NCBI RefSeq assembly: GCF_026409565.1
Contig: NZ_CP112881.1
Location: forward strand, 1,101,501 to 1,165,500
Origin: Sneathiella aquimaris
Lineage (GTDB): Bacteria > Pseudomonadota > Alphaproteobacteria > Sneathiellales > Sneathiellaceae
Reading direction: 5' to 3'
Length of the DNA stretch: 64,000 bases
This document shows, one piece after another, positions 6,236 to 56,809 of the stretch; position 1 is the stretch's first letter; each line of letters starts with the position of its first letter. The notes under the pieces were generated by a model. The model saw nothing but the letters and a program-made list of their open reading frames with translations. It did no database searches and was not told the DNA's origin. The position numbers and the translations under genes are program-made.

Positions 6236-6832
6236 TTAAAGGTGATTGGAATGTCTGTTTTCCAGCGCACTGATGATCCGATTAACCACATGCTCATGCG
6301 GTCCATCTGCGCTTTCAACCGTTATGTCTGCCCCACCGTAAACAGGATACCGTTTATCCATCAGATCTTTAAGAATCGTCCGTGGATTGCCGGTTTTCAG
6401 TAAAGGGCGCGTATTTCTTTTCATACACCGTTTGTACAAAGTATCCAGATCTGCCCTCAGCCAGACCGAGCATGCATATTTTGAGATCAGTGCCTGAGTT
6501 TCCTTATCCATATAAGCCCCGCCCCCGGTTGCAAGGACATGTTGGGGGCCTTCGAGCAGCCTGGAAATTACTTTACGTTCGCCGTCCCGAAAGGCGGCCT
6601 CGCCATGTTTCTCAAAAAACTCGGGGATACTTAAATTTGAGGCGGCTTCAATTTCGGTATCCGCATCCTTAAAAGGAAGGCCTAGCTGGTGTGCCAAACG
6701 CCGACCAACAGAACTTTTTCCGGCCCCCATTAGACCGACCAGTACGATGGTCTTATTCCCTATGTTTTTTTCGCTGCGATCACCCTTAATGTCTACAGTT
6801 TCCACTGGGGCGTCACGTTCACTTGTCATCAT
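6236..6832 (-). CDS. aroK: Shikimate kinase
   Basis: Phosphorylates shikimate to shikimate 3-phosphate with ATP. A P-loop GLMGAGKSS near residue 37 is followed by DADTEIE, the DGERKVI region and GGGAYM, all expected for AroK. The N-terminus has about 30 extra residues before the first strand, common in this class. Start is uncertain: GTG 6844, ATG 6832 and ATG 6829 are all in frame and none has a strong ribosome site; I prefer 6832 (198 residues). First gene of the aroK-aroB-CNNM set. A perfect FNR-type palindrome lies about 50 bp upstream. Confidence 0.95.
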   Translation of the reverse strand: MMTSERDAPVETVDIKGDRSEKNIGNKTIVLVGLMGAGKSSVGRRLAHQLGLPFKDADTEIEAASNLSIPEFFEKHGEAAFRDGERKVISRLLEGPQHVLATGGGAYMDKETQALISKYACSVWLRADLDTLYKRCMKRNTRPLLKTGNPRTILKDLMDKRYPVYGGADITVESADGPHEHVVNRIISALENRHSNHL

Positions 6833-6861
6833 TTCACATTTCACATTTTATCAACCGACTG

Positions 6862-6882: not shown

Positions 6883-6896
6883 TTGATGTAAATCAA
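6883..6896. promoter_or_regulatory. FNR-type binding site between aroK and membrane protein gene
   Basis: TTGATGTAAATCAA matches the FNR/ANR/FnrL consensus TTGAT-N4-ATCAA at every conserved base. It sits in the 187-bp divergent space between aroK (start about 50 bp left) and the 46-residue membrane protein gene (start 124 bp right). No promoter with ideal class II spacing is obvious in either direction. Confidence 0.55.
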
Positions 6897-49903: not shown

Positions 49904-51337
49904 CTAGCTGGCAGTGCCGCCGACAGTAAGGCCACCCAGAAGCATTGTAGGCTGACCAACACCCACAGGGACACTTTGCCCTGCTTTTCCGCATGTGCCG
50001 ATACCGCTATCCAATGCCATGTCATTCCCAATGGCTTTCACCTTTTTAAGGGCTTCACTGCCGGTCCCGATGAGGGTTGCTCCTTTAACCGGGGCGGTTA
50101 ATTTTCCATCCTCAATCAGGTAGGCCTCAGTGCAGGAGAACACAAACTTGCCAGAGGTGATGTCAACCTGACCGCCACCAAAATTAACAGTGTAGAGCCC
50201 CTTCTTGACGGAGGAAAGAATTTCACCGGCATCCTGATCTCCGCCAAGCATGTATGTATTTGTCATGCGCGGCATTGGCAGATGGGCAAAGCTTTCCCGG
50301 CGGCCGTTGCCGGTCGGTTCCACACCCATAAGGCGGGCGTTCTGCCTGTCCTGCATATATCCCACAAGGATGCCGTCTTCGATGAGTGTTGTGCAGCTGC
50401 TGGCGGTGCCTTCATCGTCAACCGTCAACGATCCCCGCCGGTCTGGAATGGTGCCATCATCAACGACTGTCACCCCTTTGGAGGCGACCCGCTTGCCCAT
50501 TAAATCAGAGAAGACAGACGTCTTTTTGCGATTGAAATCCCCTTCAAGGCCGTGACCAACGGCCTCATGCAGGATAATGCCTGGCCAGCCTGGTCCCACA
50601 ATTACATCCATCTCCCCTGCAGGCGCGTCTACTGCGTCCAGATTAACAACCGCTTGCCTGAGCGCCTCATCAACGGCCGATTGCCAGGTTTCCTCTTCCA
50701 GATAAAAATCATAGCCTGTGCGTCCGCCCATACCATGACTGCCGCTTTCCCGGCGACCATTCTGTTCGACAACGACAGAAACATTCAAACGCACCAGGGG
50801 ACGGATATCTCCGCTTCGCTCGCCGCCGCTTCGAATAATCTCAACGCCTTGCCAGGATCCCGCCAGAGAGGCCGAAACCTGAACCACACGGCTGTCTTTT
50901 GCCCGTGCATAAGCATCGACCTCTGCAAGGGTCTTTACTTTTGCATCAAAGGGGATGTTCTGCAGCGGGTTATCGTCTGCATAAAGGGAACTGTTGGAGC
51001 CTGCAGGGGGCATTGCTATATTGCCGCTATGACCACTGGAAACGGCTTTCACCGTGTCAGAGGCGGCTTTGATAGCTCTTTCACTAAGCTCGGATGCGTG
51101 GGCGAAACCAGTGGCTTCACCGGCGACAGCGCGCAGGCCAAACCCTTGTGTTGTATCAAAACTGGCACTTTTCAACCGGCCGTCGTCAAAGGAGAACCCC
51201 TCTGACTGTCGGTATTCCAAAAACAGTTCCCCATCATCTGCCCCGTCGAGAGAAGCCGACACGATTTTTTCGACCGAACCGCGATCCATATCGGTACCGG
51301 TAAAGAATAAATTGTCGGCAGTTTTGATGTCTGTCAC
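49904..51337 (-). CDS. tldD: Metalloprotease TldD
   Basis: Catalytic subunit of the TldD/TldE peptidase, 477 residues. The zinc motif HEAVGHGLEGDF is in the middle, with RRGSLTVDDEGT and MPRMTNTYMLGGDQDAGEI after it. I prefer GTG 51337, which has GGAG seven bases upstream, over ATG 51358. Partner PmbA is encoded at 42.0-43.4 kb. A c-type cytochrome gene is directly coupled downstream. The divergent neighbour is the cox cluster. Confidence 0.95.
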   Translation of the reverse strand: MTDIKTADNLFFTGTDMDRGSVEKIVSASLDGADDGELFLEYRQSEGFSFDDGRLKSASFDTTQGFGLRAVAGEATGFAHASELSERAIKAASDTVKAVSSGHSGNIAMPPAGSNSSLYADDNPLQNIPFDAKVKTLAEVDAYARAKDSRVVQVSASLAGSWQGVEIIRSGGERSGDIRPLVRLNVSVVVEQNGRRESGSHGMGGRTGYDFYLEEETWQSAVDEALRQAVVNLDAVDAPAGEMDVIVGPGWPGIILHEAVGHGLEGDFNRKKTSVFSDLMGKRVASKGVTVVDDGTIPDRRGSLTVDDEGTASSCTTLIEDGILVGYMQDRQNARLMGVEPTGNGRRESFAHLPMPRMTNTYMLGGDQDAGEILSSVKKGLYTVNFGGGQVDITSGKFVFSCTEAYLIEDGKLTAPVKGATLIGTGSEALKKVKAIGNDMALDSGIGTCGKAGQSVPVGVGQPTMLLGGLTVGGTAS

Positions 51338-51568
51338 GCTTACGCTCCATTTCAGCATTTTTCCAAGCCCGGATAGGCCTTTTGTTAAATATGTGGTTTT
51401 CTTAGCAAAATGTCGAGGGTGAGTGTTAATAGAGGCAACGATTCAAGCGCTTGTGGTATTGTTATCGGGTTAAAGATGCGTCAAAATGTCACAACTTGAC
51501 CAAAAGACGGCAAATCTGCGCTTTCGTAGACGTCGGGACGGGAGTAGTCTTTATGGTTTAAAGTGTTG

Positions 51569-51596: not shown

Positions 51597-51690
51597 CGGC
51601 ATATAAGAAGAGTCTTGAGTGTAAAAATACAGATAAATCCAGTCTAAGGCTTGTTCTGTTGATGGTCGTTCGTGTAGTTTCCGCACCAAC

Positions 51691-51704
51691 TTGATCTGAA
51701 TCAA
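51691..51704. promoter_or_regulatory. FNR-type binding site 1 upstream of ctaC
   Basis: TTGATCTGAATCAA matches TTGAT-N4-ATCAA at all conserved bases. Its centre is about 44 bp upstream of the start point predicted from the TATAAA box, close to the class II activator position. Confidence 0.65.
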
Positions 51705-51706
51705 TT

Positions 51707-51720
51707 TTGATTTGCGTCAA
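51707..51720. promoter_or_regulatory. FNR-type binding site 2 upstream of ctaC
   Basis: TTGATTTGCGTCAA matches the core TTGA-N6-TCAA, with GTCAA as used by Rhodobacter FnrL sites. It is 16 bp from site 1 centre to centre and overlaps the -35 region, so occupancy should block the promoter. Confidence 0.6.
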
Positions 51721-51735
51721 CAGACTGGCTATAAA
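51707..51735 (+). promoter_or_regulatory. Predicted sigma70-type promoter of cox operon
   Basis: TTGATT and TATAAA are separated by 17 bp, 77 bp before the ctaC start. Confidence 0.5.
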
Positions 51736-51812
51736 TAAGGCATGATCACAAATCCCTCTATGACTGGAGTAAGGATTTGCTGAGCTAAGAAAGCGATTAG
51801 AAACGGGAATAA

Positions 51813-52664
51813 ATGATGGCTATGGTTAAAAAAATTGTCGCCCTATTTGCTGCTTTTGCAGTATCGGCGCTGACAATGGGGAACGCCGTTGCGGCCCAGG
51901 GACAGGCTACTCCATGGCAATTGGGATTTCAGGATGCATTCTCCCCAGTTGCTCACCAAATGAATGATTTTCACAATCTGCTATTGGTCATTATCACGGC
52001 CATTACGCTTTTTGTGCTTCTTCTTCTTGTCTATGTTGTTATTCGATTTAACCGGAAGGCCAATCCAACGCCTTCGAAAACATCGCACAACACATTGATT
52101 GAATTTGTCTGGACGGTAGTGCCGATCCTGATCCTTATCGCCATCGCGGTACCTTCTTTCAAACTTCTCTACTATGGAGATCGTGTCGAGAAAGCGGACA
52201 TGACCATCAAAGCCATCGGTTACCAGTGGTATTGGGGTTATGAGTATGTCGACGAAGATAATCTTGCTTTTGAAGCTGTGATGCTTGAAGAAGACGAACT
52301 TAAAGAAGGTCAGCCACGGTTGTTGGCAACTGACAATACAATTGTTCTTCCGATCGATACAAATATTCGACTGCTGGTTACAGCGGAAGATGTTCTTCAT
52401 TCTTGGGCGATGCCAGCATTTGGCGTCAAGATGGATGCCGTTCCGGGCCGTCTTAACGAGACTTGGATGCGGATTGAGAAAGAAGGCATGTATTACGGTC
52501 AGTGCTCTGAGTTGTGCGGTGCCCGCCATGGCTTCATGCCGATTATGGTGAAAGCTGTCAGCAAAGAAGACTACAAAGCTTGGCTTGTAAAAGCGAAAGA
52601 AGAATTCGCGAGCGCGGGTGGGGAGGCTTTGAAAATCGCCGACGCATCTGCTGTCACACAATAA
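51813..52664 (+). CDS. ctaC: Cytochrome c oxidase subunit II
   Basis: 283 residues: a signal peptide (VKKIVALFAAFAVSALTMG...AVA), two membrane segments (about 48-70 and 95-112), and a periplasmic cupredoxin domain with the CuA ligands in CSELCGARHGFMPI. The aromatic patch YQWYWGYEY accepts electrons from cytochrome c. There is no C-terminal cytochrome c fusion, so this is an aa3-type subunit. First gene of the cox cluster; start may be either of two adjacent ATGs. Confidence 0.97.
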   Translation: MMAMVKKIVALFAAFAVSALTMGNAVAAQGQATPWQLGFQDAFSPVAHQMNDFHNLLLVIITAITLFVLLLLVYVVIRFNRKANPTPSKTSHNTLIEFVWTVVPILILIAIAVPSFKLLYYGDRVEKADMTIKAIGYQWYWGYEYVDEDNLAFEAVMLEEDELKEGQPRLLATDNTIVLPIDTNIRLLVTAEDVLHSWAMPAFGVKMDAVPGRLNETWMRIEKEGMYYGQCSELCGARHGFMPIMVKAVSKEDYKAWLVKAKEEFASAGGEALKIADASAVTQ

Positions 52665-52672
52665 TCCGTTAG

Positions 52673-54292
<1,620 letters not shown>

Positions 54293-54306
54293 CGACGGAG
54301 TGCTTG

Positions 54307-55224
54307 GTGTCTGACACAAGTATCATTCGGGACACAGAAGCTCGCGCTGATTATTCATCGGCGCGAGCAAGTGACTATTTTGCCCTCTTGAAACCAAGGG
54401 TGATGTCGCTTGTCGTGTTCACCGGCTTGGTCGGATTGGCCGTTGCACCGGGTTCTTTGCATCCTGTTCTTGCGTTCACAGCATTGCTTTGCATCGCGGT
54501 TGGGGCAGGCGCATCCGGTGCGATTAATATGTGGTATGATGCCGATATTGATCAGGTTATGGAGCGGACAAAAAACCGTCCTGTACCGTCTGGAAAGGTA
54601 ACAGCGAACGAGGCTTTGGCTGTTGGCGTAAGCCTATCAGTTGCTTCAGTCGTTTTGATGGGGCTCGCAATTAATCTGGTGGCAGCTGCATTGCTGGCGA
54701 TCACCATCGGGTTCTACATTTTCGTTTACACAATGTGGCTGAAACGTCGGACACCGCAGAATATTGTTATCGGCGGCGCAGCTGGCGCTTTTCCTCCCAT
54801 GATCGGGTGGGCTTCTGTGACCGGTGATGTCAGCATTGAATCGATTGTTCTCTTCGCCATTATTTTTATGTGGACACCTCCACATTTTTGGGCTTTGTCC
54901 TTGTGGCGGGATATCGATTACGCGAAGGCCGGTGTTCCTATGTTGCCGGTTGTTGCCGGCCGGGAGGCGACCCGCAAGCAGGTCGTTATCTATAGTGTTC
55001 TGCTGTTCCCAGTGGCAGTGATGCCTTATTTTCTGGGATATGCTGGTCTTTTTTATGGTATTGGATCGGCAATTCTGGGCGGTATCTTCCTGTTCGGTGC
55101 GTTAAAGGTCTGGGTTAAGAAAGACGAGAAAAGCGCGAAACAGCTTTTTGCTTTTTCTCTTCTGTACCTCTTTTTAATTTTCGCCATATTGCTTGGTGAA
55201 AACATCGTGAAAGGCATTTTGTAA
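54307..55224 (+). CDS. ctaB: Protoheme IX farnesyltransferase (heme O synthase)
   Basis: Makes heme O, precursor of heme A. UbiA-like membrane protein of 305 residues with the Asp motif [23 protein letters not shown] and a second acidic motif near [17 protein letters not shown] start at GTG 54307: CGGAG precedes it by six bases, while the TTG one codon earlier is too close. The ctaA step (heme A synthase) is not in the window. Confidence 0.95.
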
Positions 55225-55225
55225 A

Positions 55226-55351
55226 ATGGCTGAGGACGATGAACGCAAAAAAATGCGTAATCGCAATCTGGTTGTCGGCGGCATATTGTTTGCCCTCGTT
55301 ATTCTTTTTTACCTCATCACTGTTGTAAAAATGACGGGAGCTGGTGGATGA
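55226..55351 (+). CDS. CoxF-like small membrane protein
   Basis: 41 residues: a charged start (MAEDDERKKMRNRN), one membrane segment (LVVGGILFALVILFYLITVV) and a short tail. It begins one base after the ctaB stop, and its TGA overlaps the ctaG ATG by 4 bp. Small single-pass proteins in this place in alphaproteobacterial cox clusters are annotated CoxF. Role unproven; assembly is likely. Confidence 0.72.
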   Translation: MAEDDERKKMRNRNLVVGGILFALVILFYLITVVKMTGAGG

Positions 55352-55953
55352 CGACTGAGACTGCAAAAAAATCGAAACGCCTTGCTGTCGTTCTTGTTGG
55401 ACTGGCTGCGGGCATGGTGGGGATGGCTTATGCCGCTGTCCCACTATACGATTTGTTTTGTCGTGTTACGGGATATGGCGGAACCACCCAGCAGGCGTCT
55501 ATGGCGTCAGATGTGATTCTGGATCGGGAGATTACTGTCGGGTTTGATGCGAACACATCGCGGAAAATGCCGTGGGAATTCAAACCAGTCAAAAAAACGA
55601 TTACGTTAAAGATTGGCCAGACGGGATTGGCTTTTTATGAAGCTTATAACCCGACCGATCAGACGATTACGGGAACGGCATCCTTTAATGTGACGCCACA
55701 AAAAGTTGGTCAGTATTTTACAAAGATTGATTGTTTTTGTTTTACTGAGCAAACCTTGAAGCCGGGGCAACGGGTAGATATGCCGGTGACATTCTTTGTC
55801 GATCCGGAAATCGCCAGTGATCCAAATACAAAAGAAGTGGAAACAATTACATTGTCCTACACTTTCTTTCCGATAGAACCGGAAGAAGAAACTGAGGAAG
55901 AGACTGTTTCCAGCGTTGATAACGCGGCAAAAAAAGCCGTAGAAACTAACTAA
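55348..55953 (+). CDS. ctaG: Cytochrome c oxidase assembly protein CtaG (Cox11)
   Basis: Delivers copper to the CuB site of subunit I. 201 residues, one N-terminal membrane segment, then a periplasmic beta domain with the copper motif [21 protein letters not shown]-terminus after about 180 is an acidic extension (EPEEETEEE) not needed for the fold. Follows the small CoxF-like gene by an ATGA overlap. Confidence 0.95.
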
Positions 55954-56014
55954 CCCTTTTGGGGGTCCTATTGATAAAACCGGGGGGAATCCGGTTAGAT
56001 TGCAGGAGTTGAAG

Positions 56015-56809
56015 ATGGCAGATTCACACGCCAAACAACATGATTACCATCTCGTCGATCCGAGCCCATGGCCGGCATTGGCGTCTTTGTCTGCTTTTAT
56101 TGCCGCCATTGGCGCGGTTATGTGGATGCATGACAAGGGCTTTGCGGTATTCACCATCGGTATGATCATGTTGCTGTATACCGCCTATGTCTGGTGGCGC
56201 GACGTTGTCAAAGAAGGCGAGCATCAAGGGCACCATACACCTGTGGTCCAACTTGGACTTCGCTATGGCATGATTATGTTTATTGCATCAGAGGTTATGT
56301 TCTTTGTTGCATGGTTCTGGGCCTACTTTAATGCGGCCTTTTTCCCAACGGAAGCCGTTGGCAGCGTTTGGCCACCAGAGGGAATTCAAACCTTCGATCC
56401 ATGGACTCTTCCCTTTGTGAATACATTAATCCTGCTGACATCCGGGACAACAGTGACATGGGCCCATCACGCTTTGCAGCACGGTGATCGGAAGGGGCTT
56501 ATTCAAGGCCTTATCCTGACTGTGATCCTGGGGGCAGTTTTCTCAGTCGTTCAGGGATATGAATATTCTCATGCGGCCTTCGGGTTTACTGACGGGATTT
56601 ATGCGTCAACCTTCTATATGGCCACTGGTTTTCATGGTGCGCACGTTTTGATCGGAACGATCTTCTTGTTGGTCTGTTTGATCCGGGCGACTAAAGGCCA
56701 CTTTACTGAAAAACACCATTTCGGTTTTGAAGCTGCTGCCTGGTATTGGCACTTTGTTGACGTGGTATGGTTGTTCTTGTTCGCCGCCATTTACTGGTGG
56801 GGTGCCTAA
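56015..56809 (+). CDS. ctaE: Cytochrome c oxidase subunit III
   Basis: 264 residues with seven membrane segments and the subunit III signatures [47 protein letters not shown] and [25 protein letters not shown] 56015 with CAGGAG upstream is preferred over a TTG at 56000. Last gene of the cox set before a terminator. Confidence 0.97.

Follow-up and report, generated by a model that had tools for sequence, protein, structure and literature searches.

Does a pair of FNR-type palindromes upstream of the cytochrome c oxidase aa3 genes of Sneathiella aquimaris place this operon under oxygen control, and in which direction would such control act? The window (the whole 64,000-nucleotide stretch of contig NZ_CP112881.1 that was analysed) carries ctaC, encoding oxidase subunit II, as an ORF on the + strand (51813–52664, ATG at 51813) with 587 relatives in the genome collection, the close named ones being from Sneathiella. 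It is followed on the same strand by ctaD, encoding subunit I (52688–54292; PF00115 match, E 3e-160), and by three ORFs of the same operon named from their sequence: ctaB (haem O synthase, 54304–55224, + strand), ctaG (Cu assembly, 55348–55953, + strand) and ctaE (subunit III, 56000–56809, + strand). The gene order after the promoter region is ctaC, ctaD, ctaB, ctaG, ctaE, SURF1, and the divergent gene on the other side is an ORF named from its sequence as tldD-like (U62 peptidase; 49904–51358, − strand). The terminal oxidases of the genome are aa3 and cbb3 only; a search for a bd oxidase in the genome found none.

The two palindromes that the first-pass annotation had reported upstream of ctaC were both recovered, 16 bp apart centre to centre. 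Site 1 (51691–51704, unstranded) is TTGATCTGAATCAA, with perfectly palindromic half-sites; site 2 (51707–51720, unstranded) is TTGATTTGCGTCAA, and its left half doubles as the −35 hexamer of a predicted promoter, P2, so the boxes are not independent signals. The TTGAY-N4-RTCAA box that marks the alphaproteobacterial FNR regulon is thus found twice, at 51691 and 51707. Across the complete 3.94-Mb genome this pattern has 31 sites, versus 7 for the reversed control pattern. When the 454-bp intergenic region was shuffled 20,000 times at the mononucleotide level, at least one box arose in 55 of the shuffles and two boxes in none; the pairing is not chance.

The only other closely paired boxes in the genome (L205; TTGAC..GTCAA at G000:C1 3151998 and 3152020, 22 bp apart) separate a TetR-type regulator from an NAD(P)H-oxidoreductase-like gene and are better read as a TetR operator than as FNR sites. 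Perfect FNR-type boxes also occur at window positions 6883–6896 (TTGATGTAAATCAA), just upstream of a shikimate kinase-like gene (6236–6844, − strand), and at G000:C1 1468607 (L192; TTGATTTGGATCAA), 58 bp ahead of a small gene that we take to be DUF983-like. The DUF983-like family is found inside cta operons elsewhere.

A regulator suited to such boxes is encoded in the genome. Among the strong Crp/Fnr matches, L005 alone has a CX2CX7C motif together with a further Cys and an ETVSR helix; with its Fe-S cysteine motif CSNCAAHELALC, it has the features of the regulator of the FNR regulon. Its gene lies within an fnrL-hemN-ccoN cluster in which an FNR box precedes ccoN. FnrL is present in 24 of 25 genomes of the family, and all 22 FnrL proteins with enough sequence have both the cysteine motif and the helix. 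In every Sneathiella genome with an available upstream region, a perfect FNR box lies ~106–178 bp upstream of the ccoN match, and the motif is therefore in use. A further box in an intergenic region is found 52 bp from an ompW-like gene, and the FnrL targets listed for R. sphaeroides include ompW (PMC2908626). Binding of the ctaC boxes by a different Crp/Fnr-family protein, FixK-like or NO-responsive, would be conceivable inasmuch as FNR, FixK and DNR have a common site (PMC2908626) and L006 has a related HTVSR helix; we consider it improbable, however, as no second protein with an ETVSR helix is found among the strong Crp-family matches.

Two promoters can be predicted between the divergent genes, both on the + strand. 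P1 (51651–51678) consists of a −35 TTGTTC (51651–51656), N16 and a −10 TGTAGT (51673–51678), followed by a conserved TTCCGC, and would start transcription near 51685. P2 (51707–51735) consists of a −35 TTGATT (51707–51712), N17 and a −10 TATAAA (51730–51735), with a start expected near 51742. P2 had been proposed in the first-pass annotation with site 2 as its −35, and the hexamers, their spacing and the overlap with site 2 are all as described there. A sigma-70 consensus scan of the + strand reported neither promoter, the hexamers being weak by that consensus, so both P1 and P2 rest on conservation and spacing.

Conservation was assessed in 24 Sneathiella ctaC upstream regions, which a ctaC tree divides into clade A (11 species, including that of the window) and clade B (13 species), and in an outside survey of 26 alphaproteobacterial ctaC loci that belong to neither Sneathiella nor the Pelagibacteraceae. 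P1 is conserved in both clades, with a weaker form in L043, a member of another genus, and its strict form is found at 5 of the 26 outside loci versus 0.007 expected in shuffles. No other element upstream of ctaC is conserved so deeply, and we infer that P1 is the main promoter. The sequence TTGATTTG is found in all but one of the 24 species, the exception being L028 with TTGATTAG. The −10 of P2 is gone in L023 and L041, both of which retain P1; site 1 is also retained in L023. The centre of site 1 falls at ~+12.5 from the predicted P1 start, and P1 accounts for site 1 better than P2 does, since L023, a single species, keeps site 1 without the P2 −10.

More broadly, CTTGTT-N16/17-TGTA(G/A)T is found at window positions 51651–51690 and at L020–L043, L063, L075, L081, L084, L088 and L108. 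The CTTGTT-type element upstream of ctaC thus spans several alphaproteobacterial groups and is conserved more deeply than the FNR boxes. Closer to the gene, both clades conserve a stretch resembling GACGGGAA, which reads AACGGGAA in the window (51800–51812), directly before the ctaC start codon and in the place of the usual Shine-Dalgarno sequence. A hairpin in the 5′ leader of ctaC was considered and rejected: the leader at window positions 51743–51815 gave a fold z of −1.66, two relatives gave −0.7 and −0.8, and RNAalifold found a shared leader structure in neither clade.

Site 1 reads TTGATYNRAATCAW in 11 of 11 clade A species, in 0 of 13 clade B species, and is missing in L043. The cultured species S. 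chinensis and S. glossodoripedis are among the clade A members that retain it. Its ten half-site columns required a single parsimony step in total among the 11 clade A species (an A/T change at the last base), compared with 1.75 steps per column in its centre and 4.1 per column in the neighbouring P1 spacer, a pattern that looks like that of a dimer site under selection. This bears on the possibility that the palindromes arose by chance or as by-products of the promoter and serve no regulator. Such an origin would fit the membership of TTGATT in a promoter and the lack of site 1 at ctaC in clade B, but it is very hard to reconcile with half-sites that stay invariant over 11 divergent species or with the failure of 20,000 shuffles to yield a pair, and we give it hardly any credence.

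Site 2 evolves differently in its two halves. Because TTGATT serves as the P2 −35, the left half shows 0 steps in both clades. For the right half the figure is 2.2 steps per column in clade A, where the background is ~4, and 3.6 per column in clade B, so that any constraint on it is weak. Six of the 11 clade A species and one clade B species, L030, have a strict RTCAA there. These data allow a variant of the explanation preferred below, with which its probability overlaps: FnrL represses through site 1 only, and site 2 is just the P2 −35, whose right half matches in the window by descent or chance. The drift of the right half agrees with this, as does the invariance of TTTTGATTTG even in the sister clade that lacks site 1. 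On the other hand, a strict right half in about half of clade A, a right-half rate below that of the spacer background and the near-perfect box formed by the window's own copy of site 2 argue against it. We regard this variant as possible, but as a tentative alternative rather than the expected one.

Clade B lacks site 1 at ctaC yet keeps both FnrL and the ccoN box, and loss of FnrL or of cbb3 as the cause of the missing boxes is accordingly rejected. Site 1 is missing from the outgroup too, so its history is most simply read as one gain in clade A, with loss in clade B as a possible alternative. The comparison of upstream regions among relatives, which the first-pass annotation had put forward as a check, found site 1 throughout its own clade and nowhere in the sister clade, and for site 2 an invariant left half and a loose right half. 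The two clades offer a clean natural contrast, with the same sensor, the same cbb3 box, and site 1 at aa3 in one of them, so that promoter swaps could test directly how such an oxygen operator is acquired or lost.

Taken together, the aa3 operon is probably controlled by an FNR-type regulator, and we think it likely that both boxes are FnrL operators that mediate low-oxygen repression of the aa3 operon, with activation of cbb3 via the ccoN box. As oxygen falls, FnrL would regain its [4Fe-4S] cluster, dimerise and bind the ctaC region, repressing the aa3 operon while activating cbb3 from the box ahead of ccoN. On site 1, FnrL would cover ~+6 to +19 of P1 and block the first transcribed bases; bound to site 2, it would lie over the P2 −35 and spacer, so that each promoter would have its own blocking box. 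Both box positions appear to favour simple repression; the FnrL binding, the transcript starts and the repression in this scheme are predictions from sequence. Since the centres lie 16 bp apart, the two dimers would face opposite sides of the DNA, and simultaneous binding may not be possible; the poor conservation of its right half may also make site 2 a weak binding site in relatives. That the sister clade manages without both boxes counts against the operator model.

A more elaborate scheme, advanced in the first-pass annotation, is a two-way switch: at intermediate oxygen, FnrL would occupy site 1, in a class II-like position, and activate P2; with less oxygen, it would additionally fill site 2 and turn P2 off. 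The second half of this scheme fares well, since site 2 lies over the −35 and spacer of P2, where repression is expected. In favour of the first half, all clade A species keep the same spacing between site 1 and P2, site 1 is better conserved than site 2, as would be expected of the first-filled site, and L029 has an intact P2 with a degenerate site 2. However, the predicted centre of site 1 is at ~−44.5 from the P2 start rather than at the −41.5 of class II sites, which makes class II activation possible but unlikely, the start itself being a predicted one. Relative to P1, moreover, site 1 would be in a repressing position, and the switch leaves P1 out of account; L023 has lost the P2 −10 and retains site 1; and the effect of FnrL known at aa3 operons is repression. 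The switch as a whole is thus weakly supported and in our judgement unlikely, and it is equally doubtful that one FnrL acts both ways on a single aa3 promoter region through adjacent boxes of different affinity. If it did, aa3 expression would peak at intermediate oxygen, with the necessary layout in one Sneathiella clade and not its sister.

Simple repression by FnrL, the preferred reading, has precedents. The first-pass annotation was right that FNR-type control is probable and that site 2 lies on a −35, where repression is expected, but its premise that FNR sites are not expected at aa3 operons does not hold: direct FnrL repression of coxII and coxI has been published (PMC2908626; also PMC5398030). 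ChIP-chip in R. sphaeroides places FnrL at coxII-X-XI-III and at coxI, and FnrL represses both (Dufour et al. 2010, PMC2908626); in ChIP-seq data coxI is again listed, with a minus sign taken here as repression (PMC4263372). The core FNR regulon predicted for 87 alphaproteobacteria includes cytochrome c oxidase subunits I and II (PMC2908626). PMC5398030 describes activation of cbb3 and repression of aa3 (ctaCBGE, ctaD) by D. shibae FnrL under low oxygen, and PMC4999443 describes predicted FnrN/FixK sites upstream of the ctaCDBXGE operon in Caulobacterales and Rhizobiales. In P. denitrificans, FnrP represses the qox (ba3) operon; ctaDII mRNA is unaffected in an fnrP mutant there, and the rule of FNR repression of aa3 is thus not universal (PMC6955949). 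Our literature search did not find an FnrL aa3/cbb3 switch described in Sneathiella, and the excerpted text of PMC4999443 does not mention the genus.

The outside survey agrees with this literature. Of the 26 other alphaproteobacterial loci, 5 have a perfect FNR box no more than 250 bp from ctaC, versus 0.03 expected, and among 32 Pelagibacteraceae the count is 0; FNR boxes at ctaC thus seem to be patchy but recurrent. At L090, L091 and L110, an FNR-like box, TTGAGCTARATCAA, covers the −35 hexamer of a TATAAG promoter, the spacing being almost that of site 2 and P2. These loci belong to Kordiimonadaceae, Emcibacteraceae and another alphaproteobacterium; at L091 and L110 a further box, perfect in sequence, is found 49 bp upstream. 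At L067, L069 and L078, a perfect FNR box lies just upstream, not downstream, of a P1-like CTTGTT near ctaC, so FNR-box positions at aa3 promoters differ between groups.

FNR repression of aa3 operons is therefore already known, and on these analogies the Sneathiella case would fit that class; what is new is modest, namely a double box with one copy per predicted promoter and a clade-specific site 1. Rhodobacter sphaeroides is alike in its regulator type, its aa3 genes and its box (TTGATtcagATCAA and TTGATctggATCAA there), and also in that, by locus number, a U62 peptidase gene (RSP1825) adjoins coxII (RSP1826; PMC2908626). It differs in having one box listed per promoter, with binding measured, whereas Sneathiella has two boxes 16 bp apart, with binding predicted. 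The cta operons of Caulobacterales and Rhizobiales likewise have predicted FNR-type sites upstream, but for FixK or FnrN and in other orders. Paracoccus denitrificans resembles the proposed system in that a single FNR protein has opposite effects on cbb3, which it raises, and on a second haem-copper oxidase, which it lowers, but the lowered oxidase is ba3. In Dinoroseobacter shibae, FnrL raises cbb3 and represses aa3 at low oxygen, as proposed here for Sneathiella, a genus to which the known aa3-to-cbb3 switch under FnrL would appear to extend.
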